Source: Nitrosospira sp. Nsp14 (GTDB lineage: Bacteria > Pseudomonadota > Gammaproteobacteria > Burkholderiales > Nitrosomonadaceae). Taken from it: 50,592 bases of DNA. The position numbers and the translations under genes were made by a program. The stretch is from assembly GCF_900113575.1 (NCBI RefSeq), contig NZ_FOPV01000021.1:1-50592 (forward strand). Direction: 5' to 3'. Shown piece after piece: positions 5,218 through 23,671 of this stretch. The stretch's first letter is position 1. Every line of letters starts with the position of its first letter. Below the pieces are notes generated by a model that saw only the letters and a list, made by a program, of their open reading frames with translations, was not told the DNA's origin and did no database searches.

Positions 5218-8076
5218 GTGAAGGTAATGATAAGAAAACTTGGCAAGCTTATCCTTGATGAAATGCCTGATGGGATTGTCATCACTACAATCGATGGCAT
5301 TGTTATTTACTGGAACAAAGGCGCTGAATCGATATTCGGCTATACCGAGGCCGAGGCGTTGCAGCGGCAAGTCGATGAGCTCATCGGGACGTCCGACCAA
5401 CGGACGTGGACAGTTAAAAATAGCCTCAAGGATTTTTCACATAAGGGGGTTCATGTCCAGGAAGCATTATGCCGGAGAAAAGACGGGGGCCTCATTTATG
5501 CGGATATATCCAGCAAGGTGCTGTCGATCGAACAGCAACAAGATGAACTTGTACTGTTTAGCAGCAAGGACATAACCCTTTTAAAAGCGCTGCGCGACGC
5601 CAAGCTGATCAGTACGAAATTCGGCGATTTGCTCGATTCCACGCCCGACGGGATAGTCATAGTGAACTCGACCGGCCGCATGGTGCTGGTCAATACTCAA
5701 GCCCAGCAGCTGTTTGGCTATGATGCAAGCGAACTTCTCGGCCAGCCAGTGGAAGCGCTGCTGCCGCATCGGTATCGAAGCATGCACGTTGGGCACCGTG
5801 CAGGTTACGTTGCCCACTCTCACATCCGCATAATGGGCGCGGGATTGGAGTTATTTGGTCTACGCAAGGACGGCGTCGAGTTCCCAGTGGAGATCAGCCT
5901 GAGCCCGGTCCGGACCGACGAGGGCGTTTTCAGCATGAGCGCTATCCGCGATACCAGCGAACGAAAAAAAGCGGAACAGAAATTCCGTGATTTGCTGGAG
6001 TCGGCGCCCGATGCGGTTGTAATTGTCAATGAAAAGGGCGAGATTGTATTGGTCAACTCACAAACGGAAAAGCTTTTTAGCTATCCGCGCGAGGAGCTTC
6101 TTGGGAAAAAAATAGAAGTGCTCATTCCCTCCCGCTTCAAAGCGCGGCATCCGAGTTTTCGGGAAAAATTTACTGCCGCACCGCGTACGCGGCCAATGGG
6201 CGCGGGGCTGGAACTATATGGCTTGCGCCGGAACGGGACAGAATTTCCAGTTGAAATCAGCCTCAGCCCTCTGGAAACCGAAGAGGGCAAATTTGTTTAT
6301 AGCGCCATCCGTGATGTTTCCGAGCGAAAGCGGGCCGCCGAACTACACACTCAGCTCCGGCGCGACCTCACGGAACGCGAGATCGCGGAAAAGGCTTTAT
6401 TTGAAGAGAAAGAGCGCTTGCGCGTCACGCTAAGCTGTATTGGCGATGCGGTCATCACAACTGATGTCGCCGGGAACGTGACGTATCTTAACCCAGTCGC
6501 GGAAGCCATGACGGGCTGGACTTCACAAGAGGCGTATGGGCTCCCGCTCCCGGAGGTGTTTCAGATTGTTAATGCGCAGACAAATGAACCCGTTCCCAAC
6601 CCAATCGAGAAGGTCCTTCGCGATAAGGAAAATGTTAGCCTCACCCCGAATACGGTTCTGATCCAGCGAGGCGGTAAAATTTTTCCGATAGAAGACTCGG
6701 CTGCGCCCATCAGGGACCAGCACGGCGAAATCATGGGCGCAGTGCTCGTGTTCCACGATGTTACCCACGCGCAGAAAATGGCGATGGCGATGACCTATCA
6801 GGCCACGCATGATGCGTTAACCGGTTTGATCAACCGGCATGAATTCGAACGCCGCCTCGAGCTCGCATTGCAGACAGGCAAGCAGGACTCGAAGGAGCAC
6901 ACACTGCTTTATCTCGATCTTGACCAATTCAAAGTGGTTAACGATACCTGTGGCCATTCTGCCGGGGACGAGCTGCTGAAACAACTTACGGGCGTGCTGC
7001 AAGCCAAGCTTCGCGGTAGCGACACGCTTGCCCGTCTGGGCGGCGATGAATTTGGTGTGCTATTGGAGGGGTGCCCGACCGGGCCAGCGGTCCGGATAGC
7101 TGAACTGTTACGGCGGACAGTGCATGAATTCCGCTTTACGTGGGACGGGAAGATATTTCCGCTGGGTGCAAGCATCGGGCTGGTGACGTTCAGCGACGGC
7201 GAGGAGACGCTTTCCGACATTCTGCGCATGGCGGACGCTGTTTGTTTTCTTGCCAAGGACAAGGGGCGCAACCGGGTGCAAGTATATACCGCGGAAGATA
7301 AAGGCCTCGCCAAGCGCCGGGGGGAAATGGGATGGGTAGGGCGTATTCAGCAAGCGCTGGAAGAACACCGGTTTGTGCTGTACACGCAAAAAATTCTGCG
7401 GCTCTCGGAAAACGGCGGTGGCGATCACTATGAGGTGCTCCTGCGCATGAAAGGCGAGGATGGCATGCTGGTGCCGCCGATGGCTTTCATCCCTGCTGCG
7501 GAGCGCTACGGCCTGATGCCCCAGCTCGACCGCTGGGTAATTGCTACCGCCTTTGCGCAATATGCGGAAAGGCACCCGCCCGGAAGTCCGCTTGGCACAT
7601 GCTCTATTAACCTGTCGGGCACATCGATATGTGACGAGAGTTTATATGAATTCCTGGTGGAGCAATTCAATCTGCATAAGGTTCCGCCCGCCGGTATTTG
7701 CTTCGAAATTACGGAGACCTCGGCGATCGCGAATCTGATCCAGGCAAATCTCTTGATCGGCAAGCTGAAGGACCTGGGTTGCCGCCTTTCCCTCGACGAC
7801 TTCGGCAGCGGCATGTCGTCGTTTACCTACCTCAAGCATTTGCCGGTGGATTATCTGAAAATAGACGGCGGTTTCGTGAAGGACATGATCAATGACCCGA
7901 TCGATCGCGCGATGGTCGAAGCTATCAATCATATCGGGCATGTGATGAAAATCGAAACCATTGCGGAGTTTGTAGAGAACGACGCCATTCTTGAGGCGTT
8001 GCGGGGGATAGGCGTCGATTACGCGCAAGGGTATGGGATCGAGCGACCGCGTCCGGAAGGACTCGGTGAGGTCTAA
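5218..8076 (+). CDS. PAS-PAS-PAS-PAS-GGDEF-EAL cyclic-di-GMP turnover protein
   Basis: A 952-residue cytoplasmic sensor. Four PAS domains at about 12-115, 133-245, 255-370 and 400-515 are recognised by repeated 'xPDGIVI...NxxAxxLFGY' patterns. PAS2 and PAS3 are closely alike, suggesting internal duplication. The GGDEF domain (about 525-690) has an intact LGGDEF at 607-612 and an RGSD inhibitory site five residues before it. The EAL domain (about 705-945) has EVL at 739-741 instead of EAL, a common active variant, and keeps INLSG, EITE, DDFGSG (860-865), LKIDG and AQGYG. Both synthesis and breakdown of c-di-GMP are therefore plausible. No membrane segment. The start is uncertain: GTG 5218 or ATG 5227; neither has a good ribosome binding site. 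Confidence 0.9.
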
Positions 8077-8234
8077 CCAGGAATGGGGGCTATGGGCGCG
8101 ACTTGATCCGGCTTGGTACGTGTCAGTAGTATGGTACCGAATGCCGCGGATACGGCAATTAACAGGAGCAGGAAGGCTTTGTGCTGAAGCTCGGGGGAAT
8201 TGATGGAATCGCGAATAAAAATGAGGATATTTCC
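8073..8234 (-). pseudogene. Remnant of an AI-2E/PerM-family transporter N-terminus
   Basis: On the minus strand an open stretch of about 53 codons ends in TAG at 8073-8075. It contains NSPELQHKAFLLLLIAVSAA followed by FGTILL, which resembles the N-terminus and first membrane helix of AI-2E family (PerM-like) permeases. The following residues are unrelated and there is no usable ATG/GTG/TTG start in frame. It lies in the gap between the convergent GGDEF-EAL and phospholipase D genes, so I read it as a deletion scar. A tiny membrane peptide with an atypical start is the alternative. Confidence 0.4.
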
Positions 8235-8286
8235 GGGTGCTTCGGTTGCTCGTTTCGATGCAGAGCTTTTGGGGTCGACCGGTTGA

Positions 8287-9843
8287 TCAAATCCAACGGG
8301 ACAGCAAGCGCGCTCCGAATTCTTTCAAGCGCATGACAATGGGGCGCTGCCGCCAGCGATCAAGCGTAATAAGCCGGGAAGACGCGATGTCTCGATCAAA
8401 CATGGCTTTCATCTGATCGCCGAACTCTTGACCGAGAACGATGGCGTTGACTTCCTGATTATGCGCAAAGCTGAGCCAATCGAGATTGCTCGAGCCTATC
8501 GTGGACCAGACACCGTCGATAAGCGCAGTCTTCGCATGCAACATCGCATCCTCACGTTCATAAATCTTTACTCCGGCGCTTAATAATTCGTCGTAGTACG
8601 AGTGGGACGCGTAAAAAACAAGATTGGAGTCGGTCTCGTTTGGGAGCAGTAGGCGCACGTCGACATTGCGCCGCGCTGCGTTTCGCAGGGCGGCCAATAA
8701 GCGCGCATCAGGCACGAAGTATGCGCTTGTCACATACGCATATGTTTTCGCGCTATCGATCGCGGATAGGAGCGTCACGTAAATCGCGTTATGTTCTTGA
8801 TCCGGGGAACCGCCGATGGCCCTGACTATCTCATTGCCCTTCTTGTCGATCGGAGGATGGTAGGAAGCCCAATCCAGAGGTTTTCCGTTCTGCTTCAGCC
8901 AAGTGGCTGCGAACAGTTTCTGGAACTCCCGCACGACAGGACCCTCGATACGTACGTGCGTGTCACGCCAGGGCTTGGCGCCTTTCTCGGGCGGTTTCGA
9001 TCGGAATGAGCCGCTGGAATACACACTGCTGATGTTTACCCCGCCAACGAACGCGACCTGGCCGTCCACGATGAGCAGCTTGCGATGGTCGCGGCCGACC
9101 TCCCATTTTTTGCGCAACAGGAGCGGATTGAGCGGATTGAACTCCAGCACGTGCCCACCGGCGTCGATGAGGGGTTTGAAGAATTCTTCCGGCGTACTTG
9201 CGGAACCCACGCTGTCATAAACGAGATTCACTTGCACGCCTTTTTTTTGCTTCTCCACCAGGGCGTCGGCGAAGCGCCGTCCGACTTCGTCATTCTCGAT
9301 GCTGTAGCTTTCCATGTTGATGTTGTTTTTTGCGTCTCGTATTGCTGCATACATGGATTTGTAGGTAGCGGGGCCATCAAGCAACAGCGTCACCTTGTTG
9401 CCCGACATGAGGGGGCTTTCCGAGATTCCCTCTACCTCCGCGAGGTGTTTGTTAAAGATATCTGTTTCCGCGCTGCCGTTTTTGCGCGCCAGCGCACTCT
9501 CGCTTTGCTGAACGGAAAGCGGCCCGTGGGTTCCTTCTACGCGCACGGCCGGACGCGTGTCTTGAGTTCTATGGGGTACAGTTAGCGAACCACAACCGGC
9601 CAGCAGGACCGCACAAACAACTGCTACAAATTGTCCCCATGTAACGGATCTTCCCTCCAGGCATGAAGCCACTTGATGAGAGAGAGGCCGCGGAGCTGGA
9701 AAAACGGATGCGGTGATACCATGTAGCCGACTTTTCCTTGCTCCAACTCGAGCGGACGTATGTGCGCGCGCCCAACCATAATGAAAAAGCCAGGCGGGGA
9801 AAGGGTGTCCGCTGTTTTTTTCAGCTTTTTTTTCTTGATTCAT
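8287..9843 (-). CDS. Phospholipase D-family lipoprotein (cardiolipin synthase ClsC-like)
   Basis: Up to 518 residues with two HKD catalytic motifs: HRKLLIVD (H253, K255, D260) followed by GQVAFVGGVN, and HAKTALID (H436, K438, D443) followed by IGSSNLD. This is the layout of bacterial cardiolipin synthases and related phosphatidyltransferases. A lipobox LLAGC ends at Cys84, preceded by a hydrophobic stretch, so the mature protein is probably a lipoprotein. The first ~57 codons do not fit a signal peptide; a GTG at codon 58 (about 9672) would give a normal 27-residue lipoprotein signal and may be the true start, though its ribosome binding site is poor. The C-terminus ends near the usual family position. 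Confidence 0.85.
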   Translation of the reverse strand: MNQEKKAEKNSGHPFPAWLFHYGWARAHTSARVGARKSRLHGITASVFPAPRPLSHQVASCLEGRSVTWGQFVAVVCAVLLAGCGSLTVPHRTQDTRPAVRVEGTHGPLSVQQSESALARKNGSAETDIFNKHLAEVEGISESPLMSGNKVTLLLDGPATYKSMYAAIRDAKNNINMESYSIENDEVGRRFADALVEKQKKGVQVNLVYDSVGSASTPEEFFKPLIDAGGHVLEFNPLNPLLLRKKWEVGRDHRKLLIVDGQVAFVGGVNISSVYSSGSFRSKPPEKGAKPWRDTHVRIEGPVVREFQKLFAATWLKQNGKPLDWASYHPPIDKKGNEIVRAIGGSPDQEHNAIYVTLLSAIDSAKTYAYVTSAYFVPDARLLAALRNAARRNVDVRLLLPNETDSNLVFYASHSYYDELLSAGVKIYEREDAMLHAKTALIDGVWSTIGSSNLDWLSFAHNQEVNAIVLGQEFGDQMKAMFDRDIASSRLITLDRWRQRPIVMRLKEFGARLLSRWI

Positions 9844-10281: not shown

Positions 10282-10923
10282 CTATGACCCTGCGTTTGCG
10301 TTTGCGTTTGCGTCTCGTCTTCGGCGGGCTGCGTAGTTGACAAGACCAAGACCGGCTAGCAGCAGGACGTAGGATTCAGGTTCGGGAACGGAAGACACGG
10401 GGGAGGGCATGGGGGAGATGTAGGAAACACCGAGGGAGGCGCCCTCGACATTCAGCACATCCAGGGCCCAGTGCGAATCCCTGCCATTAAAGCCGACAGG
10501 CCCCGTTCCCTGAAAACCATCCGTTAATATACCCCGGGGGAAGCTGCTGTATTGGGTCACGGTGGCGGTATAACTGCCGGGGGAAAGAAGCGATGCGAGG
10601 AGGGGGTCCCAGGTGTGGCCACTGACAGGGTCGCGTGCGCTTAGCGTGCCTCCGTCGTCGCTAAAACCGATACGAACGCCTGAGGCGTCGAAAAGGGTAA
10701 CCATGGGGTCGAATCCACCATGTTCGATGACTGCCCCTTCGGCGTTGGTCCCGCCCGCAAACGACCATGTGCGCAAGACAACCTCTTTCGCCGCGCTTAC
10801 TACCGTGAAGTTGAGCTCCTGCACCTCGTTGCGATGTTTGAAATTTCCCGCGAAGGAAAAGTCGGTAGCGTTGGCGCTTCCGCTGATCAAGCTCATCGCA
10901 ATTAGTGCTTCATACGTTTTCAT
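10282..10923 (-). CDS. PEP-CTERM sorting-domain protein
   Basis: A 213-residue exported protein: an N-terminal signal peptide (MKTYEALIAMSLISGSANA, cleaved at about 19) and a beta-rich middle of the DVUA0089-like type (FDPMVTLFDASGVRIGFSDD; SPGSYTATVTQYSSFP). A C-terminal PEP-CTERM tag follows (VPEPESYVLLLAGLGLVNYA then RRRR). PEP-CTERM proteins are processed by an exosortase and usually end up in the envelope or extracellular matrix. After the Arg cluster the gene runs on into a DANANANAGS tail encoded by a hexanucleotide repeat, which is unusual. No exosortase gene is in the window. Confidence 0.85.
   Translation of the reverse strand: MKTYEALIAMSLISGSANATDFSFAGNFKHRNEVQELNFTVVSAAKEVVLRTWSFAGGTNAEGAVIEHGGFDPMVTLFDASGVRIGFSDDGGTLSARDPVSGHTWDPLLASLLSPGSYTATVTQYSSFPRGILTDGFQGTGPVGFNGRDSHWALDVLNVEGASLGVSYISPMPSPVSSVPEPESYVLLLAGLGLVNYAARRRRDANANANAGS
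10292..10315. repeat. Hexanucleotide tandem repeat (GCGTTT x3 plus GCGTCT) in the PEP-CTERM gene
   Basis: Four consecutive six-base units at the 3' end of the PEP-CTERM gene encode the alternating Asn-Ala tail after the Arg cluster. Copy-number changes keep the frame, so they would alter tail length rather than switch the gene off. Confidence 0.8.
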
Positions 10924-12095: not shown

Positions 12096-13967
12096 ATGAG
12101 CTCGGTTTATAGTAGTGGCACATACACCACCGTTGGACCTGCGCCCACCGGGAATAGCACAATAAACGCCCTGATTGTGGGAACCAAGTGGGGCGCATCC
12201 GGTCTCGGCGGGAGCGCCAATGTCACATTCAGTTTTCCGGTCTCTTTCACAGTGGGCAGCAGCGGGGCGCACAGTAGCGGCGCCTTTGGCTACACCGGTG
12301 AGCCGCAGGACAGCGGGCAGGCCCTTAGCGCAATGCAGATGGCGGCTGCACGGGAAACATTGCATAAATGGTCGCGTGTTGCGACGCTCAACTGCAACGA
12401 GGTGGCGGACACCATCGACACGAAGTGGGAGTCCGGGGATAACAGCTCGGTGGGCGATATCCGGCTCGCGATGTCGAATCTGCCCTCCGCAGCCTGGGCC
12501 TACTATCCGGGGCAGGATAACGCGCCTTACGGCGGGGATGTGTGGCTAAACAAGAGTGACTATCACGATCCGGTCGTTGGATACTATGCGTATTACACAT
12601 TCCTGCATGAAATCGGACATACCCTGGGGCTGGAGCACCCGCACGAGAGCAATGACAACGATGTCATGAGCCTATCCGTCGATGCACTCAAGTACAGCAT
12701 CATGAGTTACCGGGATTACGTAGGAGATGACATCGATGGCGTCGGCGAAAATTTTTTCCCTACCACCCCTATGCTCTACGACGTGCTCGCGTTACAGGCG
12801 CTATACGGCGCCAACTGGAACTATCGGAGCGGAAACGATACATACAGTTGGGCGCCCGGCGCCAAGGTCTACGAGACAATATGGGATGGCGGCGGCATCG
12901 ACACGCTGAGTGCGGCGAATCAGACCCGGGATGTGGAACTGCATCTGACTTCGGGGGTATTTAGCAAGATCGGTAGTCCCGTGTGGGACGAGCATGCCTG
13001 GGTGCGCGACAATCTGGTGATTGCCTTCAACGCCACCATAGAGAACGCGACCGGCAGCAGTTATGACGACTATATTTTTGGCAACACTGCAGGCAACGTC
13101 CTTGTAGGCGGACCGGGCAACGATACCATGCGCGGTTCCGAATGGGCCGATCGCGACGTATTTGACAATGATACGATGTACGGCGGGAGCGGCGGCGATC
13201 TCATGGCCGGGCATAATGGCAATGACGTCATGTACGGCGGGGAAGGCAATGACTTCGTCACTGGGGATAGCGGCAACGACATTCTGTCCGGCGGCAACGG
13301 TAACGATATCCTCAATGGGGGGCCAGGGGACGATCTCCTCATCGGAGGCTTGGGGAACGATACGCTGAACGGTGGCGGAGGGTTCGATGAGGCGACCTAC
13401 GCGGCCGCCACCGCTCCAGTTAACGTGGATCTTTCCCTGTCGGGCGGGCGCGCGACCGGCGCCCAGGGCATTGACAAGCTAAGAGGTATTGAAAAGGTGA
13501 CTGGCTCTGCCTTCGCTGATACGCTGACCGGGGACGCGAATGCAAACGTGCTGAGTGGCAGGCTGGGCAATGACACGCTGCAAGGCGGAGCTGGCAATGA
13601 CACGCTTGCCGGCGGTGGGGGCGATGACCTGTTTCGTTGGACTGCGACCGCCTTCAATAGTGGCGATATCCGGTTTGGCGGAGTGGACAGGGTGTCCGAC
13701 TTCAGTCGCGGCGACGCGCTCGATTTCTCCGCCGCCCTTGAGTCGCTGCTGATGGTGAATGGCACGCGTCTGGGTGCAGCAACATCGGACATCGCCCTCG
13801 GCAACGCGCTGAGCATCTCGACCAACGTCTGCTTGCAAAACGGCCGCGATCTGTATATCGACCTGGATAGCAGTCACAGCATCACGGCCAATGATTATCA
13901 TGTCGAGCTGACCGGATTGGGGGGAGTCCTGAAGTATGACGCGGCAGCAGACCTGTTCCACGTCTAA
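12096..13967 (+). CDS. Serralysin-like M10 metalloprotease with RTX calcium-binding repeats
   Basis: A 623-residue secreted zinc protease. The catalytic motif [11 protein letters not shown] (H171, H175, H181) and the Met-turn SIMSY (201-205) define the serralysin group of family M10. From about 320 on there are many GGxGNDxxxG nonapeptide repeats (about 325-440 and 485-515) that bind Ca2+ and fold outside the cell, then the C-terminal domain typical of type I secretion substrates ([12 protein letters not shown]). There is no N-terminal signal peptide, as expected for export by an ABC/MFP/OMP system. No such exporter lies in this window. The start is supported by AAAAGGAG. Probably involved in extracellular protein degradation or matrix processing. 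Confidence 0.92.
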
Positions 13968-14149
13968 ATCCTAAATCGGATCAACTGTTTTATGGCCTCC
14001 CATGCCGTATACCAACACCACAAAGCCCGATAAAAGCGGGGCTGTTCAAAAAAAGCCTCCTCATAAACTCCGGGAAATTTCGGCTTGACCGCCGCAATGC
14101 AGCTTTTGTGTTATCGGCTCCGATTTGCAGTAGTCGAAGCTTTAGGTTA

Positions 14150-14569
14150 CTACCGGGCAGGGACGTCGACCGCGATAACCGTTGTGACGCCGTGTGAGAA
14201 AGAAAACCGCGGAGTGCGATGATCATGAACGATGCTCTTTGCGATGTCTTTGTCCCCCTCGGCATAATACGCAGTCTGAACACCGGTATTGCTGCTCGAG
14301 CCGCAGCAGGCGACCGCCCTCCCGAAACCTAACCCTATATCAACATTGTCTTTGGGCGTGCTGAAAGCCCTTGTTGAGGTGCTGGTATAAGTGTAGGTGT
14401 TGGAGCCGTCGGCAGCGGCCCAAGGGCCCAGTCATACGGCGACGGCGCCCGCTGTGACAGCATCCATCTTTGTCCCCGTCAGTCTCACCGGTTCCGCCGC
14501 ACTTAGGACTACCGGCTCCGCCAGGGCGCCAAGCGCCAGAGGTGAAAGTAAAGTCATTCTCATTTTCAT
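14150..14569 (-). pseudogene. Small exported 'VTAG' protein, copy 1, interrupted by an in-frame TGA
   Basis: Reading the minus strand from the ATG at 14569 gives the same protein as the genes at 18552 and 20207: signal peptide MKMRMTLLSPLALGALAEPV, then AAEPVRLTGTKMDAVTAG, then a Ser/Thr/Tyr-rich body with AVACCGSSSNTGVQTAYYAE. Codon 46 is TGA (14432-14434) where the paralogue at 20207 has GGA; after it the frame stays open for 93 more codons to TAG at 14150. There is no frameshift, so a single base change seems to have killed it. The signal peptide is about five residues shorter than in its paralogues. The 3' flanking sequence also matches that of copy 3. Orientation is opposite to the other copies. 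Confidence 0.75.
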
Positions 14570-15333
14570 CAATGTTTTTCTCCTGAGAGTTAAAGTGGAT
14601 AATCCGCTCGGGCGGCACGCACCTTTACAGAGCGAGGAGCCATCCTCGTATCGCTCATCGCCATCGCTAGTATGATCTGGACAAAGATTTACTGATCGCT
14701 CCCCCACGGGCGGAGAAAATTAAACTAAAGCAGTTCACTTAGGTAAAGGATACAAAGAGGACACTTGTCTTATCCACAATCGGGATATTTGTCAGTTCCA
14801 ATGCCCTGCTAAAACGTAATAGCTTAATGGTGAGCGGTAATCCTGACGGCGGGCGCTCATAAGGCAAGATGATCTGCAAATAACATAGCCGCTCAGTCAA
14901 AATTTAAGGACAATTTTTTTCAAGAAACGGGCGAAGGTGTCCCGGGGGTCCTCTGGGCAATTCGTCCATCGATTCCAAAAATGTTCGGTAGTAAATATAA
15001 GTAAATTTGTGTTCGGTTCCGCACAAACGTGGGAGCTAAGATGTTTCATCCTCCGACGTGAAATACCAGTACCTAGTGCTAAGGAATTAGAATGCTTCAT
15101 TTCTTTGGTGCGAAGGAACTGTATGTTTTATCCTCCGACCCGTCGGGTAATGACGTGTGAACTCCAAAGGATTGGAAAAAAGGGATGGAAACGAAAAGAG
15201 GAGCCGTTCCTGCTTCCTGTAACAAATATTTTACTTAACGGTGGCTGCAACAAAAAGAAGAAATGGAACTTCGTCTAAGATCTCCAAACGAACCGCAGCT
15301 AATATGAACACTAGGGCGTAGCGAGATAAGAAA
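14570..15333. other. Intergenic region between divergent copy 1 and the LuxR-type regulator
   Basis: About 760 bases, AT-richer than the surroundings. Open frames (14897-15100 minus; 14937-15278 plus) have no ribosome binding site or recognisable product. A 17-base motif (ATGTTTCATCCTCCGAC, one mismatch) occurs twice about 80 bases apart, near 15040 and 15124. The region should hold promoters for both flanking genes. Confidence 0.45.
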
Positions 15334-16215
15334 ATGATAAGTGGACTAAGAGGGAGAATAGCAGAGCTTGAGAGTGAACTGAGTAGGATGGGGCTGGCAC
15401 TGACCAGCGAAGAGAACAGCCATGATAATTGGAAAGATAGGACCGAGGGAGACCCAGGGAATAAGCTATTTGTGACACCAAAGCGTGCTCATCCTATAGA
15501 CGAGAGCACGATTGAAGAAGACGTTGTTAAGACGGGATGTGCACTGATTGATTCACGGCCGCTGACACGGATATCCATCGCAAATCTGCTAACAACGCTT
15601 TCGGATGAGTTTGTTATCTTGCCTTATTCAAACATCGATGAGTTCGTGACTAGATATCTGGAACGTCCCTGCAAAGTTGAAATGGTCGTCTTTAATCTTG
15701 GTTCAGCACGCATCAGCGAGAATCATATTTCTGACGGAATTCTACGTCTGAAGCTTGAGCTTCCCGACTTGCCCTTCGTCTTCCTTTCCGATCATGATGA
15801 GCTCCGTGATATTCTGGATGCCATTCAGATTGGGGCGCGCGGCTACGTCTCATCGGTTTTCAACCCGTCCACAGTGATCCAGTCACTTCGACTTGTCTTG
15901 GCGGGCGGTGCATTTATTCCACATAACGCTCTTATGGAGATCACTGGAAAAACTGCAATGCTCCGAGAGGAGGAGTGCCCGAACGTCGCCAAGATTGACC
16001 CACCTCTGTTGCATACTCTTACGCCGCGGGAATTGGAGGTGTTCGAGCTTGTGCGGCGGGGTAAGTCAAATAAAATCATTGCGTATGAGCTCGGAGTGCA
16101 GGAGAGCACCGTAAAGGTTCATACCCGAAAAATTATGACGAAGCTTAAGGCAATCAATCGCACTCACGCAGCTTTCCTGGGATCTCAAATAACCGAGGGG
16201 AAAGCTGAATGTTGA
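15334..16215 (+). CDS. LuxR/FixJ-type transcription regulator with a degenerate receiver domain
   Basis: A 293-residue protein. A short N-terminal coiled helix (about 1-25) is followed by a receiver-like domain (about 65-205) and a LuxR helix-turn-helix (about 225-285, LTPRELEVFELVRRGKSNKI then ESTVKVHTRKIMTKL). In the receiver the usual phospho-acceptor Asp after the third strand is Asn (VVFNLG, N121), so classical phosphorylation is unlikely; an acidic LIDS patch remains at 71-74. Amyloid and matrix regulators such as CsgD and VpsT also have non-canonical receivers; this comparison is only by analogy. It sits among the VTAG genes and is the obvious candidate regulator of that cluster. No histidine kinase is nearby. 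Confidence 0.85.
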   Translation: MISGLRGRIAELESELSRMGLALTSEENSHDNWKDRTEGDPGNKLFVTPKRAHPIDESTIEEDVVKTGCALIDSRPLTRISIANLLTTLSDEFVILPYSNIDEFVTRYLERPCKVEMVVFNLGSARISENHISDGILRLKLELPDLPFVFLSDHDELRDILDAIQIGARGYVSSVFNPSTVIQSLRLVLAGGAFIPHNALMEITGKTAMLREEECPNVAKIDPPLLHTLTPRELEVFELVRRGKSNKIIAYELGVQESTVKVHTRKIMTKLKAINRTHAAFLGSQITEGKAEC

Positions 16216-16576
16216 TTGCGGTTTAGTGTGCGGCAGGGTTGGGATTAGTGAGAGCAGCAAGAGAGGAGATATCTAAGCGCATATGGAGTCGGCCCCTGCA
16301 TTTTCATCTGTAGTAGTCGACTTCATCGGACCGCCAATATCGCCTTGGAGGCGGAATATTCCTATTCCTATCAATAGCGGGGCTGCGCGCCCTTTATAGA
16401 ACTGAGCATCTAAAGTAATGGAAGGCGCAAAAAAACTGCCCGTAGTTCAAGGCGAACATCTCTCGTCACATCAACGCGGGTTATAGCCGGTTGCAATAGC
16501 ACCACATGGGGCGAATCGCGAATTCCCCTCTCTGTCCTGTAACCAGAAGCGATCCATCCGGTATCCGCAAATTAAA
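16216..16576. other. Intergenic region, no supported gene
   Basis: About 360 bases between the regulator and an IS21 remnant. No gene, clear hairpin terminator or promoter could be recognised. Confidence 0.5.
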
Positions 16577-16870
16577 TGTCAACGCGGATTTAAATCTGAC
16601 CCACTTATCGTCGGAAACGTCGAAGTAATTCTGGCCACCTCCGCACTGGGTTTTACTTCCTTTTGCTTGTGTTTGTCTGCTTTGCGCTTCTTCTCAAGGC
16701 GATAACTTTCGCCGGCAATTTACACAATGTGGAAATGATGCGGCAAGCGGTCGAGCATCGCGGCGGTAAGGGTCTGGTTGTCGGCAAAGGGCGGTGTGCC
16801 ATCGCCGATCCCGTTTTCACCTCGTATTGGCGGCATGAAGATAGCCCCTTGCAAAGACATGGGGGCTTAT
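16577..16870 (-). mobile_element. IS21-family remnant (IstB C-terminal fragment plus terminal end)
   Basis: The element end TGTCAACGCGG at 16577 and the nearby CTGACCCAC box match the IS21-like end at 50464. Reading leftward-transcribed sequence gives IstB-like pieces: LTAAMLDRLPHHFHIV, then a stop, then GESYRLEKKRKADKHKQK. These correspond to the 'TTAMLDRLTHHCHIV...ESYRxKxKRK' end of IstB helper ATPases. It is truncated and interrupted, so inactive. It lies directly downstream of the small exported protein at 16959. Confidence 0.6.
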
Positions 16871-16958
16871 GGGATCTTTCTCAGCCCGCCTTGAGCCACA
16901 GATGCTTCATCAACAGTCGTTCTGTAGCAAAAGGCGGGTTGATTTTTCTTGCGGCTAA

Positions 16959-17303
16959 TTAGTCGGTAGCGGAGAGGCTTTGGCTATAGGAAGTCGTCGG
17001 TCCGTAATAACCTGTGTTGGTAACGGTGAGCGTTTCGGTCAAGCAGCTATAAGCGGAGCAGGAAGCAGCAGCTTCTGCATCCGCGAGTTTTCCATCGACG
17101 TTCACATAGGAATCAACATCTTTGTATACATTAAGGTAGGCCTGTACGTTGGTATAAATATCTTTATTGAAGTAAACGCTATTGTAACCAGCGGCCGTAA
17201 CACCATCCATTGAGGCTGCGGTCAGGCGTTCCTCTGCATTAGCAATGCCTACACCGGCAAGTAAAGCGATACCAGCAAACAACGAGGTCATTTTTGCGTT
17301 CAT
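16959..17303 (-). CDS. Small exported protein with a VTAAG leader-like motif
   Basis: A 114-residue protein from the ATG at 17303, chosen because AGGAGA lies 7 bases upstream; the frame is open 11 codons further. A Sec signal peptide (MNAKMTSLFAGIALLAGVGI, cleavage after ANA at 23) is followed by RLTAASMDGVTAAG, matching the RLTxxxMDxVTAG segment of the proteins at 14150, 18552 and 20207. The rest is different: Asn/Tyr/Val-rich (YNSVYFNKDIYTNVQAYLNV) with two cysteines (SCSAYSC) and a Ser/Thr-rich end. The Asn/Tyr-rich, low-charge body could form beta-structure or amyloid. Function unknown. I infer it is a divergent substrate of the same C39/porin pathway. Confidence 0.75.
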   Translation of the reverse strand: MNAKMTSLFAGIALLAGVGIANAEERLTAASMDGVTAAGYNSVYFNKDIYTNVQAYLNVYKDVDSYVNVDGKLADAEAAASCSAYSCLTETLTVTNTGYYGPTTSYSQSLSATD

Positions 17304-17589
17304 GGGTCTTCTCCTGAAGTAAATATTGAAGGGCACACTTGCCTCGAGAGCCGGCCAATACTCGAAAGCACCCCCGAATTTGGTTTAGCCGGTTGAGCCA
17401 ACTATGGCCCTATCGTGCAATACCCGCAATTCGTAAATAGTTTATTCAACCGAAGGTGCTATTCATTCAACTGAAGGTGCTATCGATACCCCAAACAGAG
17501 TACTAGAGGTGGGCTAATGCTTAACGCTACTCCTTTAGTTGACTCGCCTCCGTAGTCTGTAGCCACTCCGAAGGCTTAAAAGACAAGGC

Positions 17590-17890
17590 ATGAAAGGAGG
17601 AGTCATGGGCAGCAGCGTGGTCGGGAAGAATTCAAGATGCTGTAAAACAGATTCCCGAAAGAGTCACCGGAGTATCAGAGGTGACCCAGGATGGTGTTTC
17701 ACAGCCTAGTTTATGTCCACAAACGCTACAGTCTGTTCGATCGGAGACAGCGAACTTCTAGGCAGCAGAAATTCGTCATCTGAAAGCGGAATGAAGCGAA
17801 GTCAGCGAGGAGCGCGACATCCTAAAAGGATGCGGCGAGTTTTACTGGTCGTTGCCTCGCCTAGGTTGCCGACAACGGGTTAGAGCAGGA
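17590..17890 (+). mobile_element. IS3-family orfA remnant
   Basis: Plus-strand translation with interruptions gives DAVKQIPERVTGVSEV, then AEIRHLKAE, a stop, then SEVSEERDILKRCGEF. This is the helix-turn-helix and leucine-zipper layout of IS3-family OrfA ('IRxLxxELxxVxEERDILKKA'). Internal stops show it is dead. The sequence up to 18195 could be further decayed transposase DNA, but I see no clear motif there. Confidence 0.55.
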
Positions 17891-18551
17891 CTTTAATGCC
17901 GAGGCGCCCAATCGGGTCCGATATCATTTGTATCTTCAACCCACGAACACTGGCTGTATCTCGCAGTCGTGCTCCACGTGTCCTCGCGCTAAATGATGGT
18001 GGTCCATGTGTTCGCGGATCGATATCGAGCTGGTGGATAGTGAACTATGGTCGAGCTTTTCAATGCGTTTTCCACGTTTTTGGATGTGCAACCCGAAGGG
18101 ACCGGATAGATTTCACCAATCCCGTCGTACTTGCCGCTTACAGCGGTGTACTCGGTGTCCCAGCGTCACATCGCCTATCACGCTCGCTTATGTCCGGCGA
18201 AAACTTGTTTGATTTTTCACGGCTCTATTTTCTCACACGTTGAAGCCTCCTCAAAATCCGCGCGGATTCAACACATGCCCTGTGTCTTAGTGTCGCCACG
18301 TCGTCGTCCATGACGTTTTCTCCATCTAAAAGTCCCAGCTCATATACAACCAAAAGAGTATCTTCAAAACGAAGACGATGCACTAATATCGAGTTGCTAC
18401 TCTATTCACTCTTGCGGAAACAGGGCAACAGCAAAACAGGATAATTTTCCCAGCATGAGGAGAAAGAGCGGCAATGGCACTTTAACTCTACATTTTCGCG
18501 GGAAAAAAAGGGATAAGAATAATCTCTCTCTCGTATGACAGGAGCAAGATT

Positions 18552-18968
18552 ATGAGAATGACTTTACTTTCACCTCTAGCGCTGTGTGCCGTGGTCTTTG
18601 CCGCCCTGGCGGAATCGGTAGTCCTATGGGCTGCGGAACCAGTGAGATTGACCGCGACGCAGATGGATGCTCTCACAGCAGGCGCCGTCTCCCTAGGAGT
18701 TAGCGCTTGGGCCGCTACAACCGGCTCCAATACATACACTTATGCCAGTACCTCAACGACCGCCTCAGGGACGCCTACAACGACCGTTGTGACAGGGTCA
18801 GGTTACGGGGAGGCACTCGCCTGCTGCGGCTCGAGCACCAATACCAGTGTTCAGACTACGTATTATGCCGAGGGGGACAGAGTCATCGCAAATAGCACCG
18901 TTACTGATACCAGCACTCCGTGGTCTTCTTACTCATACGGATTTACAAACGTTATCGCCGTCGAATAA
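18552..18968 (+). CDS. Small exported 'VTAG' protein, copy 2
   Basis: A 138-residue protein. Signal peptide (MRMTLLSPLALCAVVFAALA, cleavage probably near LWA-AEP at about 27), then PVRLTATQMDALTAG (30-44), then a Ser/Thr/Gly/Tyr-rich body low in charge (SNTYTYASTSTTASGTPTTT) with ALACCGSSTNTSVQTTYYAE and a C-terminal aromatic/Ser stretch. There is a Cys-Cys pair. A CAGGAG ribosome binding site precedes the ATG. It is about 60% alike to copy 3 by eye. The LTxxxMDxxTAG segment resembles double-glycine-type leaders cleaved by C39 peptidases. No known family recognised; I infer a surface or fibre-forming protein. Confidence 0.75.
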   Translation: MRMTLLSPLALCAVVFAALAESVVLWAAEPVRLTATQMDALTAGAVSLGVSAWAATTGSNTYTYASTSTTASGTPTTTVVTGSGYGEALACCGSSTNTSVQTTYYAEGDRVIANSTVTDTSTPWSSYSYGFTNVIAVE

Positions 18969-18969
18969 A

Positions 18970-19085
18970 TTTTCCCCAAATCGGCAAAGTCGGATTGGTC
19001 GCGCGCACTGGTGGCGTCTCACCTCCTAATCTGCTTGAACCGAAAGCAGATGGGTTTTTTACGTCGCGATAGATCGTGAAAGTCT
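18970..19085 (+). pseudogene. 3' remnant of a C39 peptidase gene
   Basis: Directly after the stop of copy 2, the sequence aligns with the end of the C39 gene at 21412-21520. FPQIGKVG, then NLLEPKADGF and a stop are preserved, with small deletions and substitutions. It shows that a C39 gene once followed copy 2, as it still follows copy 3, and that most of it was deleted. Confidence 0.75.
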
Positions 19086-19203
19086 TGGGAAGTGACGAGC
19101 TTAAAACTTGTTAGAAGAGTTTAACTTAACTTCTCAATAAGTAGTGGCCGGTTCTGAATTTCAAAAGCTTGGCGGAAGTTCAAATCACCGATGAAAGCTA
19201 TTT

Positions 19204-19868
19204 TCATGGCGTGCTGTGGATCAACTGTCTGGGTGTCTTCATCTTGAGCCGCTTGCGAGGACGGTATTCATTGTAATGCTCGAACCATTGTTCAAGCTGT
19301 GCTATTACAGTTTTTGCATCGAGCCGCTCGTGAAAATAAACAAAAATCCTGTTTGAAGGTCTTGACGAACGCTTCAGCAATGCCCGTAGGAGTCGGCACT
19401 TCTCACGGCGGTCAAACAGCTGACGAGGCCCAAGACCTTGGACAAAATGGTGGCTTCTGGGCTGATATAACCCGCTGCCAGTGTCGCTGAGCCGTTTCCA
19501 CATGTGCAGGAGCCGGGCAACTGCATGCGGGCCTAAGGTAGACTCAATAGCCGCTTGGGGAGAAGTTCATGTTGCGAATGGAGGGATATTGAGATCCCGT
19601 ATCGGTGCGATTGCGATGTGCCAGGCCCTCTGATTTCCAGGTTGACGAGCATAGGGAGTCTGTTCGAGCGCATCGAGCACGAAGTCCATTTGCATGGAGC
19701 TACTGACCTGCCACCCGACAATACTCCTGGCGAACACGTCAATCACGGAGGCCACGCACCAGTAGCAGCCCTGCCAAGTCGAGCCATACGTGAGGTCCGA
19801 GACCTAAAGCTGGTAGGACGACCCGCTTTGAACCGCCGGTTTCATATCCGAGCACCTGGTCTACCTAG
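19204..19868 (-). mobile_element. IS3-family orfB (DDE transposase) remnant
   Basis: On the minus strand the pieces read, in order: SDLTYGSTWQGCYWCVASVI, DVFARSIVGWQVSSSMQMDF with VLDALEQTPYARQP, and LDAKTVIAQLEQWFEHYNEY with KTPRQL. These are the core and C-terminal parts of the IS3-type integrase domain ('VIDVFARxIVGWxxS' and 'LxxWFxxYNExRPxxxL'). Several frameshifts separate them, so no active transposase is made. It sits between the two units of the segmental duplication. Confidence 0.7.
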
Positions 19869-20206
19869 GGCGAAAACTTGTTTGATTTTTCATGGCTCCA
19901 TTTTCGCAGGCGTTGGAGCGTCCTCAAAATCCTGCTCAATTCCAAACGTGCTTTGATTCAACGCGTGCCCCAGGTCTTGAGGGATGCTAGATCGTCAATT
20001 GACACCTTCTCCATCTAAAAGTGGTAGTTCATATACAACTAAATGAGAATCTTCAAAACGAAGACGATACATTAGTATTGGTTTGCCACTCTATTCGATC
20101 TTGCCTGAAACGGAGACAACAGCAAAACGGGGAGAAATTTCCAGCGCATCGAGAAGAAAGAGTGGCACTACCTATTTCCCCTACATTTGCAGTCAGGAGC
20201 AAGATT

Positions 20207-20635
20207 ATGAGAATGACTTTACTTTCACCTTTAGCGCTTGGCGTCGTGGTTTTCGCCGCCCTGGCGCAGCCGGTAGTTCTATGGGCTGCGGAACCGGTGA
20301 GACTGACCGGCACAGAGATGGATACCGTAACAGCGGGCAGCGTCGCAGTAGGAGTTGCCGCTTTCGCCACTGCGGAGGGCTCCAATACACGCACTTATAG
20401 CAGCACATCGACGACCGTTTTCAGCACGCCTAAAAACAATGTTGAAATTGGGCGAGGTGTGGGGAAGGCAGTCGCCTGCTGCGGCTGGAGCAGTGATACC
20501 GATGTTCAGACTGCGTATTCTGCCGAGGGGGACAAAGTCATCGCACATAGCAACGTTCATGACCATCACACTCCGCGGTTTTCTTTCTCACAGGGACATA
20601 TAACGGTGATCGTGATCGACGTTCCGTCCCATTAG
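20207..20635 (+). CDS. Small exported 'VTAG' protein, copy 3
   Basis: A 142-residue protein from the ATG at 20207 with CAGGAG upstream; the open frame extends 62 codons further but without homology. Signal peptide (MRMTLLSPLALGVVVFAALA), PVRLTGTEMDTVTAG (30-44), Ser/Thr-rich body (GSNTRTYSSTSTTVFSTP), VACCGWSSDTDVQTAYSAEG, and a His-containing end. Copy 1 (broken) is closest to it over the C-terminal half (HDHRTPRFSFSHG against HDHHTPRFSFSQG). The C39 peptidase gene starts about 250 bases downstream on the same strand. I infer an exported substrate of that peptidase; the family is not known to me. Confidence 0.75.
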   Translation: MRMTLLSPLALGVVVFAALAQPVVLWAAEPVRLTGTEMDTVTAGSVAVGVAAFATAEGSNTRTYSSTSTTVFSTPKNNVEIGRGVGKAVACCGWSSDTDVQTAYSAEGDKVIAHSNVHDHHTPRFSFSQGHITVIVIDVPSH

Positions 20636-20882
20636 TAAACCAAAGGCTTCCACCAAATGCAGATCGGAGCAGATAAAACAAAGGTTACATCGCGGCAATC
20701 AAGCCGGGCGGGAAAAATACCAGAATAAGGCGATCCATCCTTACTTCTATTGCTTTCATTTACCGCTCCGTATCAGTACTTTTAAATCAAGGCCAGTGTG
20801 AGCCAAAACGCAGACATGAGGCGTGCGGCGATAGATAGTCTTGTGAGAATACAAAGCTTAATAAAAAACAGGGGAGGGGCGT

Positions 20883-21518
20883 ATGCAACAATGTCGATCC
20901 ATTTATCCTGTAGCCATAAGATTAATCTGTATCGCTACTCTGACCATCGGTGTTGCGAACCTGGCGGATGCGAGAATAGTTAAATCTCTTCTTGAAATGC
21001 GCCGGGAAAATGTTGTTATGCAGAAATGGGATCTTAGCTGCGGGGCCGCTGCGTTAACGACTTTGTTGAATTTTCAGCATCACGACATGGTTACCGAGAA
21101 AGAGGTAGCGACAGCGCTGATGGGGCGGGAGGAGTACATAAAGAATCCTCTACTGGTGAATATTCGTCAGGGCTTTTCCTTACTCGATTTAAAACGCTAT
21201 GCCGATGCACGTGGCTACGATGGAATCGGCTATGGCAAGCTCACGCTTGATGGTTTGGTAAAGAAAGCGCCTATTATTGTTCCCCTCAATCTGCTGGGGT
21301 ATAACCATTTTGTTATTTTTCGGGGAATAAAAGGTAACCGTGTATTACTTGCCGATCCAGCATGGGGCAACCGCACCTTGCTGGTCGAGCAATTCGAAAA
21401 CGCATGGATAGATTTTCCGCAAATCGGTAAAGTCGGATTTGCGGTCGCGCGGACTGATGGCGTTTCAACTCCTAATCTGCTTGAACCAAGAGCAGATGAG
21501 TTTGTGATGTTGCGATAA
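20883..21518 (+). CDS. Exported C39-family cysteine peptidase (FapD-like)
   Basis: A 211-residue peptidase. An N-terminal signal or anchor (about 8-30, YPVAIRLICIATLTIGVANL) precedes a C39 fold: catalytic Cys53 in KWDLSCGAAAL, the His in GYNHFVIFRG (H142) and Asp158 in LLADPAWGN. C39 domains cleave leaders after Gly-Gly-like pairs. When fused to ABC transporters they act in the cytosol, but this one stands alone and appears exported, as FapD of the Pseudomonas amyloid system. Next to it are proteins with a TAG-ending leader-like motif (upstream) and a FapF-like barrel (downstream). A GGAGGGG box precedes the ATG. A damaged second copy lies at 18970. Confidence 0.88.
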   Translation: MQQCRSIYPVAIRLICIATLTIGVANLADARIVKSLLEMRRENVVMQKWDLSCGAAALTTLLNFQHHDMVTEKEVATALMGREEYIKNPLLVNIRQGFSLLDLKRYADARGYDGIGYGKLTLDGLVKKAPIIVPLNLLGYNHFVIFRGIKGNRVLLADPAWGNRTLLVEQFENAWIDFPQIGKVGFAVARTDGVSTPNLLEPRADEFVMLR

Positions 21519-21546
21519 ATTGTGAACGTCGCTGAACCATTCCACA

Positions 21547-21935
21547 GTCTGCAAGCGCCAGTCAATGTTCTCAAAGCGCCGCTCAATAGGGAATCCTCCT
21601 CGAGCAGCAAGGGCGTGCGCGAGATCAGTTCTTTTTTATGGGCAAGCTTCACCGCTTCGGTGAGAACCTCATTCTCCAGTGTTTTCTTGCCCAACTCCTC
21701 CTCCAACTCACGAATCCGCCTTTTCAACTCTCATACGTCACCCGCAGTCACTACGCGCCGCTTCGCTTCTTGTCCGCCTTCGGTCACGAGTTTTCTCCGG
21801 CGAAATAATCGCCTGGAGCAGCAATACCATATTTTCGCGCCGGACAAGAGGCCGTCATGCCGGGCAGACGCGATTCCTCGACAGCTGTTAATTTCTCGCA
21901 AAAGCTCCAGCGCCTCCGACTCTCAATTCCGGCGG
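21547..21935 (-). mobile_element. IS3-family orfA remnant
   Basis: On the minus strand: RRRWSFCEKLTAVEES with KYGIAAPGDYFAGE, then after disruptions RIRELEEELGKKTLENEVLT with EAVKLAHKKELISRTPLL. This is a classical OrfA ending ('KKTLENEVLxEAVxxARxKKxISRxPLL'). Frameshifts make it inactive. It lies between the C39 and the barrel genes, which may have been adjacent before the insertion. Confidence 0.65.
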
Positions 21936-22079
21936 CTGCTCCAATACGATCAGAACGTGAAGCACTATGCATAGCACCCAGGCATACCTGTCTCCTAAAA
22001 AAGATGTTCGATATGAGGAACTGGAGAGCGAAATATATTGTACTTTGCATGGTTTTTTCTTGAGACTGGAAGGCGGGAA

Positions 22080-23363
22080 ATGAAAAGAGTCGATGGATCG
22101 AAAAAGAACCGGATTAAAGGGGCCTTATTAACGGGCGTCAGTCTTTTTCTTGTCAATCCATTCAGTATTTGGGCGCAACAGGTAACGGAAGCAGCATCGG
22201 TCAATCAACTCATGATAAAACTTCAGGAGCGCGATCAGGTAATTGCAGATCTTCAGCGGCGAGTCCAGCAACTCGAACAACGTGTAGGCGGGGTGCCGCA
22301 GGCTTCTGAATCTACAAAGGCTGCTCAGCTCCCTGCGGCGCCATCAGATAAAGTCGTTGCCGGCCAACCTGCTCGACAGGCTCCAGCTAATGAAGGTGCA
22401 AAAGAAACACCACCTGTGGCCGCAGCGCAAGGCAAAACAGGCGCCGGTAGTTTTGTGGTAGATGAGGAGGCAGCGGAACGAGCCCTTGAACGCACATTGG
22501 TTCAGACTGGGGCATTACTGTTGCCATTCGGACTAGCAGAAATTCAGCCATATGTGAATTATGCGCGTTTTGATAACGAACAGCCTGTCTTGCTCAGGGA
22601 TGCAGCGGGTAACATAGGTGCAGTTGCCGATACTCAAACACGCCGTAACGATATCGAAACAGGTTTTTTTTCTAGACTCGGCCTGCCTTTCGGGGCTCAG
22701 GTAGAACTTGGCATACCAGCCCGGATAATCAATGCATCTAATGTTGTAGGAATTGTCAATCAAGAAACGGAAAATACCACTTATGCGCTAGGTGACATTC
22801 GTGTCGGTCTTGCCAAAACTTTGCTGCGGGAAAGCGCTTGGCTGCCAGATATCGTTGGTCGAATAACCTGGGATACAGATACAGGCAAACAACAAACACT
22901 CAGTAATGCTTCACTTGGGGGCCTGGCTGGGACTGCGACTGGCGTGGGTATGGCTACCAGCTTCAATGAGTTGAATTTTTCAGCAACCGCACTTAAGCGT
23001 CAGGATCCATTAGCTTTTACCAGCACGCTGGGTTACAGGAAAACTTTTGCAAAAGATGGGATCGAGCCTGGCGATGTGTATAGTTTAACTTTGGGCGCAA
23101 CGCTTGCTGCAAGTCCGCAGACTTCATTAAGTGTGGGTATTCAGCAAAGTTTTATAGGTAATACAAGGATATTTAATAACTCAATCCCTGGGACAGATAC
23201 AATCAATAGTGTATTTACATTCGGTGCGTCTTCCATTATTGGTTCGCGGTTATTTTTCTCTACAGTAGCTGGTATTGGTTTAACAAAACACGCTCCTGAT
23301 TATTTTATCAGTGTAGCGATTCCATTGAGATTTGAGGTGCCGTTTAAAAAGAAGGGAAGTTAA
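22080..23363 (+). CDS. FapF-like outer-membrane beta-barrel with N-terminal coiled coil
   Basis: A 427-residue protein from the ATG at 22080, preceded by a GGAAGGCGGG stretch. Signal peptide (about 1-32, ALLTGVSLFLVNPFSIWAQ), a short coiled coil (about 41-70, LQERDQVIADLQRRVQQLEQ), a Pro/Ala-rich linker (71-125), and a long alternating-strand domain (about 140-427) ending FRFEVPF-like (IPLRFEVPF) as outer-membrane barrels do. This order - coiled coil, linker or plug, barrel - matches FapF, the trimeric secretion pore for Fap amyloid. The barrel is also close to the 'MetA-pathway phenol degradation' porin superfamily, the main alternative. Beside an exported C39 peptidase, FapF-like export is the better reading. 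Confidence 0.75.
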   Translation: MKRVDGSKKNRIKGALLTGVSLFLVNPFSIWAQQVTEAASVNQLMIKLQERDQVIADLQRRVQQLEQRVGGVPQASESTKAAQLPAAPSDKVVAGQPARQAPANEGAKETPPVAAAQGKTGAGSFVVDEEAAERALERTLVQTGALLLPFGLAEIQPYVNYARFDNEQPVLLRDAAGNIGAVADTQTRRNDIETGFFSRLGLPFGAQVELGIPARIINASNVVGIVNQETENTTYALGDIRVGLAKTLLRESAWLPDIVGRITWDTDTGKQQTLSNASLGGLAGTATGVGMATSFNELNFSATALKRQDPLAFTSTLGYRKTFAKDGIEPGDVYSLTLGATLAASPQTSLSVGIQQSFIGNTRIFNNSIPGTDTINSVFTFGASSIIGSRLFFSTVAGIGLTKHAPDYFISVAIPLRFEVPFKKKGS

Positions 23364-23365
23364 AG

Positions 23366-23671
23366 TCAAATTAGAAAGGCTATGCTTGATTCAATTGCTA
23401 AAATTTTTAGCTCACGAACCACAGCCGGGGGCAGGCTTCCCAACCCGCTATGGGGTCGTTCTTCATTATAACTTTGTAGCCACTGGTGCGTGATTTCCCG
23501 CACTTCATCTAGTGATGTAAATAACCAGTTGTTGAGCACTTCAGCCCGGTATGAGCGGTTAAAGCGCTCTGGCTTGCCCGGTTGGATGAAACACAGTTCA
23601 ATGCCCTTGCCGCTTCCAAAGCATAATCGGCTTATGCCTAATACGGCTAACGAGCATGATTGGGCGCGCAT
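23366..23671 (-). mobile_element. IS3-family orfB C-terminal remnant
   Basis: A 101-codon open frame with [40 protein letters not shown] and [19 protein letters not shown], the C-terminal third of an IS3-group DDE transposase. The usual residues between PGKP and ERFN (QNAYI) are missing and there is no N-terminal part. It ends 3 bases after the stop of the barrel gene. It seems to come from a different IS than the orfA piece at 21547, since the order is wrong for a single split element. Confidence 0.75.

Follow-up and report, generated by a model that had tools for sequence, protein, structure and literature searches.

A stretch of 50,592 nucleotides from contig 12 (NZ_FOPV01000021.1) of the 3.36 Mb genome of Nitrosospira sp. 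Nsp14, hereafter the window, carries genes for a stand-alone C39 peptidase with a predicted signal peptide, for an outer-membrane barrel modelled with the fold of FapF, and for three intact small exported proteins that share a LTxxxMDxVTAG segment (VTAG proteins). The peptidase, the barrel and the VTAG proteins recur together in distant proteobacteria, and the shared segment follows the spacing of the leaders recognised by C39 peptidases. We propose, with a probability of about two in three (0.68), that the genes of this locus export small cargo proteins in two steps: the cargo would reach the periplasm through Sec and lose its leader to the peptidase before leaving through the barrel. An earlier note, made from the sequence alone, had put forward a similar interpretation and suggested that the locus could be a separate branch of the systems related to Fap, the functional amyloid of Pseudomonas. 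The observation behind that note is confirmed and its interpretation supported; a matrix or amyloid role of the cargoes is a tentative idea.

The C39 peptidase and the barrel

The genes on which the proposal rests are the following:

20883-21518, plus strand: stand-alone C39 peptidase, FapD/FilB-like and presumably periplasmic, 211 residues, signal peptide predicted by eye at about residues 1-30
21039-21041, 21306-21308 and 21354-21356, plus strand: codons of the catalytic residues C53, H142 and D158
22080-23363, plus strand: outer-membrane barrel modelled with a FapF fold, N-terminal coiled-coil helix 37-70, plug-like helix 129-142
20207-20635, plus strand: VTAG protein and putative cargo 1, 142 residues, intact, motif LTGTEMDTVTAG, leader L33-G44 at 20303-20338
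18552-18968, plus strand: putative cargo 2, 138 residues, intact, motif LTATQMDALTAG, leader at 18648-18683
16959-17303, minus strand: putative cargo 3, 114 residues, intact, leader LTAASMDGVTAA at 17190-17225

The peptidase matches Pfam Peptidase_C39 at 1.3e-12 and holds the three catalytic residues that the earlier note had named when it described an exported stand-alone enzyme. Its best-scoring NCBIfam model is FilB, with 103 bits against a family cut-off of 475; FapD matches at 1.1e-23 (83.7 bits, under the cut-off of 330), and 6mpz, the structure of the LahT150 protease, is the sole sequence match in the Protein Data Bank (PDB) at 0.01 or better.

The barrel matches the NCBIfam FapF model at 8e-11 with 41 bits, far under the cut-off of 700. 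An AlphaFold model of it (mean pLDDT 79) contains both helices listed above, and the 18 best matches of this model in a fold search of the PDB are all FapF crystal chains (best E 5.6e-17, TM score up to 0.78 by target length), ahead of the COG4313 channel 4rl8 (4.5e-11). As modelled, the window barrel thus has the FapF-type fold together with the coiled-coil helix, in line with the N-terminal coiled coil claimed earlier. Such profile and structure comparisons with FapD and FapF had been suggested by the earlier note, which would have given way had the barrel grouped with ordinary phenol-pathway porins; instead, the FapF fold came first, and the FapF model matches 26 of 27 related barrels at 0.01 or better.

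Conservation of the locus

Among 121 genomes (that of Nsp14 and those of its relatives), 21 have a C39 match at 1e-8, five of them at 7.7e-73 or better and the next at 1.4e-27. These genomes were scanned with a degenerate DNA pattern encoding L[ST]xxxMDx[VIM][ST]A[GA], with the reversed pattern as a control. The pattern gave 12 matches, all within the five genomes that have a C39 of the window's clade (5/5, against 0/116 of the others), an overlap with a chance probability of 5e-9, and the reversed pattern gave one. Eleven of the 12 lie on the contig of the C39 gene; the twelfth, in genome G064, opens a different contig, where it codes for a VTAG protein of the Sec type, and the C39 gene of G064 lies at the end of its own contig. 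In the window itself the pattern matches 3 times, against a mean of 0 and a largest count of 0 in 100 shuffles.

A species-level collection scanned with the five clade C39s yielded 67 named loci. Thirty-eight of these are clade loci, with C39s 49-87% identical; the organisms represented include Nitrosospira, Nitrosomonas, Methylobacter, Nitrococcus, Herbaspirillum, Noviherbaspirillum, Lamprobacter, Defluviicoccus and alphaproteobacterial metagenome-assembled genomes (MAGs); 27 loci with more distant C39s served for comparison, and two Bacilli loci were left out. Open reading frames (ORFs) for VTAG proteins occur within 7 kb of the C39 gene in 35 of the 38 clade loci, whereas only two of the 27 distant loci (L075 and L077) have them (p 1.5e-12). 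They number 97 in total, 1 to 6 per locus, and shuffled proteins gave 0-2 in each of 20 shuffles. With this first regular expression (regex), no VTAG ORF was found within 7 kb in the clade loci L043, L062 and L066; since one cluster of neighbouring genes turned out to consist of VTAG-like ORFs that it had missed, all these VTAG counts are lower bounds. A barrel is likewise present in 35 of the 38 clade loci, and the remaining three end 110-370 bases past the C39 gene. The neighbourhood survey proposed in the earlier note finds its gene set well beyond Nitrosospira, and the outcome that the note said would undo it, a C39 never beside VTAG proteins in other genomes, is the reverse of what we see. 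Relatives of the window's LuxR-type protein (phmmer E 1e-15 or better) occur in 10 of 38 clade loci, a count affected by the truncation of several loci. Any other family is shared by at most 6 of the 38 (ORFs of 90 residues or more within 6 kb, BLAST 1e-8).

In a tree of 106 C39s, the 39 sequences on the VTAG side form one clade with support 99/90, so that the earlier note was right to speak of a separate branch. The nearest named relative of the window C39, with 87% identity, is that of Nitrosospira briensis Nsp8. The residues C53, H142, D158 and Q47 are kept in all 40 aligned VTAG-side C39s (the window, the 38 clade loci and L075) and in all 26 more distant ones. Just outside the VTAG clade, in the Nitrospirota MAG of L075, an exported ORF of 333 residues with LSDDELDQVTAAG (7863-8864) adjoins the C39 gene.

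The linkage was also followed by coordinates in 17 genomes of the named loci, where 31 of 32 pattern matches fall inside the C39 locus (reversed control, one match). The pattern matched 12 of the 13 clade genomes and 0 of the 4 others; the clade genome without a match is Nitrococcus Nb-231, in whose leaders some residues vary. The match outside a locus is in Methylobacter marinus (G510:C1:4235792-4235826), on the contig of the C39 locus but some 3.9 Mb away from it, and is possibly an orphan cargo.

A scan of the phylum covered 398 genomes, 39 of them with some C39 match, and by score a clade C39 in that of Nsp14 only. The pattern matched 18 other genomes, once each, and from the ORF context none of these matches is a Sec signal plus VTAG, which removed the possibility of VTAG proteins independent of a clade C39. 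Eleven are members of a single different conserved family, FxxLMDY[IV]SAG; one falls in the last part of an ORF of 507 residues and one in an ORF that we take to be enoyl-CoA-hydratase-like; in three the translation has a stop or a residue that does not fit (L149, L150 and L163); and at L153 and L164 no signal peptide precedes the motif, the frame at L164 also having stops. With the shuffles, and the reversed pattern matching once in each of three scans, a chance origin of the VTAG motif is ruled out.

A probable leader in the register of C39 substrates

The C39 recognition elements reported for ComA and LahT150 are Leu-12, Glu-8, Leu-7, Val-4 and a double Gly (PMC6363468). Read from its sequence, the LTxxxMDxVTAG segment is in the spacing and register of these leaders, and only position -2 differs. 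The first regex left only -10, -9, -8 and -5 free and allowed few residues in every other column, including some columns that were later counted; it gave 102 ORFs, with Q or E at -8 in 90; the residue at -2 is A in 98 and G in 4, and that at -1 is G in 96 and A in 6. A looser search of exported ORFs near clade C39s, which fixed D-6, [VIL]-4, [TSA]-3, [AG]-2 and G-1 and left -12, -8 and -7 free, found 111 ORFs in 35 of the 38 loci, with L-12 in 108, Q or E at -8 in 94 and M or L at -7 in 109.

By a rough rule, 91 of 102 proteins have a likely site for signal peptidase 2-5 residues ahead of L-12, so that in the periplasm the leader would stand at the N-terminus. Mean pairwise identity is 0.61 in the leader, a figure that partly follows from the regex, and 0.12 over the 12 residues that follow it. 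BLAST sorts 100 passengers into 43 clusters, or 56 when low-complexity stretches are masked; a conserved segment before such divergent passengers looks like a leader with interchangeable cargo. The mature proteins (n = 101) would have a median length of 71 residues and a median pI of 4.85, with a pI of 9 or more in 19, and the passengers have a median of 60% A/S/T/G/N/Q.

The three window cargoes have no family match in Pfam and NCBIfam scans, Curlin_rpt included, and a PHROGs search gave nothing useful. A model of cargo 1 is all-beta, with seven strands and residues 1-36 disordered, and a fold search with it found no clear known fold. In a scan of ten cargoes, Curlin_rpt matched three, all among the six that come from Oxalobacteraceae and all under the threshold (best 0.0041, 17.5 of 20.7 bits). 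Stretches like QxGxNNTAxVxSGN are shared by VTAG cargoes of this family (L053, L055, L057 and L059).

Leader-like segments beside other C39 peptidases

Similar segments were seen next to other C39s, and the four C39 branches look like they come with four dialects of one leader. One case is FapE. An [RH]G[RK] segment lies near the signal peptide in 20 of 21 FapE ORFs (L105 and L195-L214; L213 is without it), and the leader is mostly LxDxE[LM]xx[LM]RG[RK], directly after the signal peptide. Our first look at FapE fixed several columns that were later counted; repeated with -12, -8 and -7 free, it gave [LIV]-12 in 20/20, E-8 in 19/20 and [LM]-7 in 20/20. In the one complete fap operon examined, where FapC, FapE and FapF exceed their family cut-offs, FapE (L215:8085-8828) is alone among six proteins in fitting the register, and a GG occurs somewhere in all of them but FapD.

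These observations fit the data of Rouse et al. 2017 (PMC5557850), who reported that the catalytic Cys of FapD is essential for FapC secretion. The authors called the target of FapD unclear, stated that canonical C39 sequences are missing from the Fap proteins, favoured FapE as the candidate and saw no FapE peptides from its first ~70 residues. In a review of 2025, FapD is still presumed to act on the N-terminus of FapE and on FapF (PMC12822426). The FapF of L217 has a leader-like site in its linker; a general leader in FapF linkers was rejected, as regex matches occur in just 9 of 60 barrels and look like chance in the coiled coil.

Beside more distant C39s (Massilia, Nitrosomonas and others), small exported proteins of two families, merged as seeds during iteration, occur in 31 of 36 loci searched; L075, L076, L029, L030 and L032 have no ORF of either. 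A site was called in 45 of their 60 ORFs with columns -7, -3, -2 and -1 fixed by regex, giving L-7, R-3 (42), G-2 and G-1 (39); two or more of the 45 calls are clearly at the wrong place, and among the ORFs some are too long or in a wrong frame. No family name was found for the proteins scanned. In the Massilia/Nitrosomonas-type FapD loci (L031, L033-L037 and L077-L101), two small exported LxxxRGG proteins often flank the C39 gene. Finally, exported proteins with [MLV][DN]DxxLxx[VAQ]TGQ occur in 5 of 9 loci of one further C39 clade; one of them (L030) is FilA-like at 5.3e-14, and four similar ones stand beside related C39s. From this single tested neighbour we infer that the clade is of the FilB type.

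Taken together, we lean slightly towards a general proteobacterial pathway from Sec through C39 to the barrel, with one recognition code and a leader dialect for each C39 clade, in which a leader right after the Sec signal would direct a protein first to a C39 in the periplasm and then to a channel of the FapF type. The dialects would be VTAG here, RG[RK] in FapE, RGG in the Massilia/Nitrosomonas type and VTGQ in FilA-like proteins; FapE would be a direct substrate of FapD, and the VTAG branch would export dozens of unrelated cargo families by means of a single leader.

Relation to known systems

The Neisseria nap island (NapA/B/C, NapR, the C39 NapP and NapF; PLoS Biol 2025, PMC11798529) combines small cargoes of the GG type, a putative regulator, a stand-alone C39 and a FapF-like channel, and its authors propose periplasmic cleavage followed by secretion. 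Compared by description and not by sequence, the window locus shares this layout of leader-bearing cargoes, regulator, C39 and FapF-like channel, so that the kind of system was already known. Naps are short, cationic and predicted to be helical, with GG sites; in contrast, VTAG proteins exceed them in length, are acidic for the most part and have a TAG site, and the single cargo modelled is rich in beta structure. Counterparts of napI and napH were not noticed at the window locus, although no search was aimed at them. FapD and FapF had been placed in larger families in 2013 (PMC3792158), and co-localised fapD and fapF homologues are known from further phyla (PMC6173800).

With Fap the locus shares a FapD-type C39, a FapF-type coiled-coil barrel and the leader register of FapE, but its C39 forms a separate clade, its cargoes are VTAG proteins and its site is TAG, not RG[RK]. 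The earlier note had seen no FapA, FapB, FapC or FapE. This stands for the last three, since the Nsp14 genome has no FapB or FapC match at 0.1 (nor have 14 control genomes) and no FapE match at 1e-5 (nor have the control genomes); FapA was not searched by model, and the six window proteins scanned matched no Fap cargo family. Applied to 37 genomes that have FapD-type C39s, the same FapE model detects the protein in 20, and the FapC model detects the FapC of a fap operon at 1.3e-80. The locus is thus not a Fap locus by gene content but probably works like one.

The Fil proteins (FilA/B/C; NCBIfam "putative pilus system"), presumably linked to Acinetobacter, resemble the locus in that FilB is the best model for its C39 and FilA-like leaders are in the same register. 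They differ in that FilB reaches 103 of 475 bits and FilC 12.6 of 630 bits, in their TGQ site and in FilA, which matched none of the six window proteins scanned. The double-glycine leaders of ABC transporters have the same spacing, with hydrophobic residues at -12, -7 and -4 and an acid or amide at -8, but are cut in the cytoplasm by a transporter domain, whereas the VTAG leader lies behind a Sec signal, has Ala at -2 and stands beside an exported peptidase.

As far as our searches reach, the VTAG branch, its leader, its array of cargoes and the register shared with FapE and FilA-like proteins are new within the literature searched. In open-licence papers we did not find the FapE register in print, a negative that may be wrong, and found none that joins VTAG, C39 and peptidase.

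Rearrangement and neighbouring genes

Other features of the locus in this strain are the following:

14432-14563, minus strand: broken fourth VTAG copy with signal peptide and leader kept, the whole inverted copy spanning 14140-14563
18959-19084, plus strand: remnant of the 3' end of a C39 gene, after cargo 2
15334-16215, plus strand: LuxR/NarL-type regulator (GerE 7.5e-18; receiver domain 7.7e-4, under its cut-off)

Cargo 2 is a paralogue of cargo 1 (62% identical), and the passenger of cargo 3 belongs to a different family. The four small VTAG proteins counted earlier come down to these three, for the fourth copy, read on the minus strand from 14563, has an in-frame stop four residues past the motif; the LuxR-type regulator was correctly recognised. 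About 560 bases separate the C39 gene from the barrel gene. The segment 18196-19084 duplicates parts of 19869-21530 without most of the C39, and this partial duplication of the unit of cargo 1 and C39 explains the C39 tail after cargo 2. The locus is rearranged in this strain, yet one full set remains. Transposase-like fragments were spotted by eye on the minus strand in and around it (19204-19503, 21230-21727 and 23366-23671) and are perhaps tied to the rearrangement.

Upstream lies a serralysin-like M10/RTX protein (12096-13967), and an RTX-like ORF, recognised by eye, is also found near the VTAG locus of genome G057 (L026:5980-6474). A PEP-CTERM protein (10282-10923, minus strand, Pfam 4.5e-7) represents a different surface-sorting system near the locus.

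Proposed pathway and alternatives

In the pathway that we propose, Sec would export the cargo to the periplasm, and once the signal peptide is removed, the first 15 or so residues of the resulting pro-protein would close with L[ST]xxxMDxVTAG. The periplasmic C39 would recognise this leader as its cytoplasmic cousins do double-glycine leaders, with L-12, Q/E-8, M/L-7 and V-4 in the groove and small residues at -2 and -1, and would cut after TAG. These events we regard as likely, and the cleavage at TAG claimed by the earlier note is backed to this extent by the match in register to C39 leaders. The mature cargo, which is rich in Ala, Ser, Thr and Gly, in most cases acidic, and composed largely of beta strands in the only model, would then probably exit through the barrel, a step held a little less firmly than the cleavage. 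The LuxR-type protein probably controls expression. In the least certain step, the cargo may become surface or matrix material, possibly fibres; this tentative idea draws on the analogy with Fap, the beta-rich model and the weak curlin-like repeats of three Oxalobacteraceae cargoes. An amyloid-like matrix has been described in granular sludge rich in ammonia oxidisers, in a study that detected no Nitrosospira and did not connect the matrix with these genes (PMC6291783).

Some observations fit the pathway less well. Pfam Phenol_MetA_deg also matches 15 of the 27 related barrels, so that profiles give no clean split from FapF; the rule of Gly at -2 with Gly, Ala or Ser at -1 fails for VTAG leaders, which mostly have Ala at -2; and the R or K at -1 in FapE is unlike the classical C39 site.

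The alternative that survives best keeps the export route and changes the biology, with the VTAG proteins as secreted bacteriocin-like or autolysis peptides like those of the nap island. Several diverse cargoes per locus would suit peptide warfare or signalling, and the peptides of the nap island, whose layout is shared, promote autolysis (PMC11798529). We nevertheless think it unlikely: mature Naps have 36, 16 and 31 residues, are predicted to be helical and have a pI of 9-10.1 (PMC11798529), and the VTAG set, with its longer and mostly acidic proteins, does not show this short cationic character; the sole modelled cargo is all-beta; and no immunity gene was noticed among the families that four or more of the 38 clade loci have in common (up to three examples viewed of each).

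It is more improbable still that LTxxxMDxVTAG is a docking or retention element bound uncut by a C39 acting as a chaperone. Some C39-like domains are indeed non-catalytic (PMC5557850), no canonical GG stands at the VTAG site and position -1 of FapE is R or K; but the catalytic residues are kept in all 40 aligned VTAG-side C39s, FapC secretion depends on the catalytic Cys of FapD (PMC5557850), and a plain GG is kept in 39 of the 45 called sites of small proteins beside other FapD-type C39s.

We give very little credence to a barrel that takes up hydrophobic substrates in a chance or historical cluster now dead in this strain, since the Phenol_MetA_deg matches (15/27), the broken cargo copy, the C39 remnant and the transposase-like fragments of the window are set against a gene set kept with strong linkage over distant proteobacteria (which makes a chance cluster unlikely), against open frames for the C39, the barrel and three cargoes, and against the rank of FapF over COG4313 in the fold search.

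Implications

The export pathway proposed here would add, through its VTAG branch, many predicted secreted proteins in nitrifiers, methanotrophs and other bacteria, and its leader provides a signature for finding more cargo. The same kind of tag is suggested as the mark of FapD's target in the Fap system of biofilm fibres. Reading the site by register, and not by the presence of "GG", yields a residue-level prediction for FapE, so that the question of which substrate FapD processes becomes directly testable.

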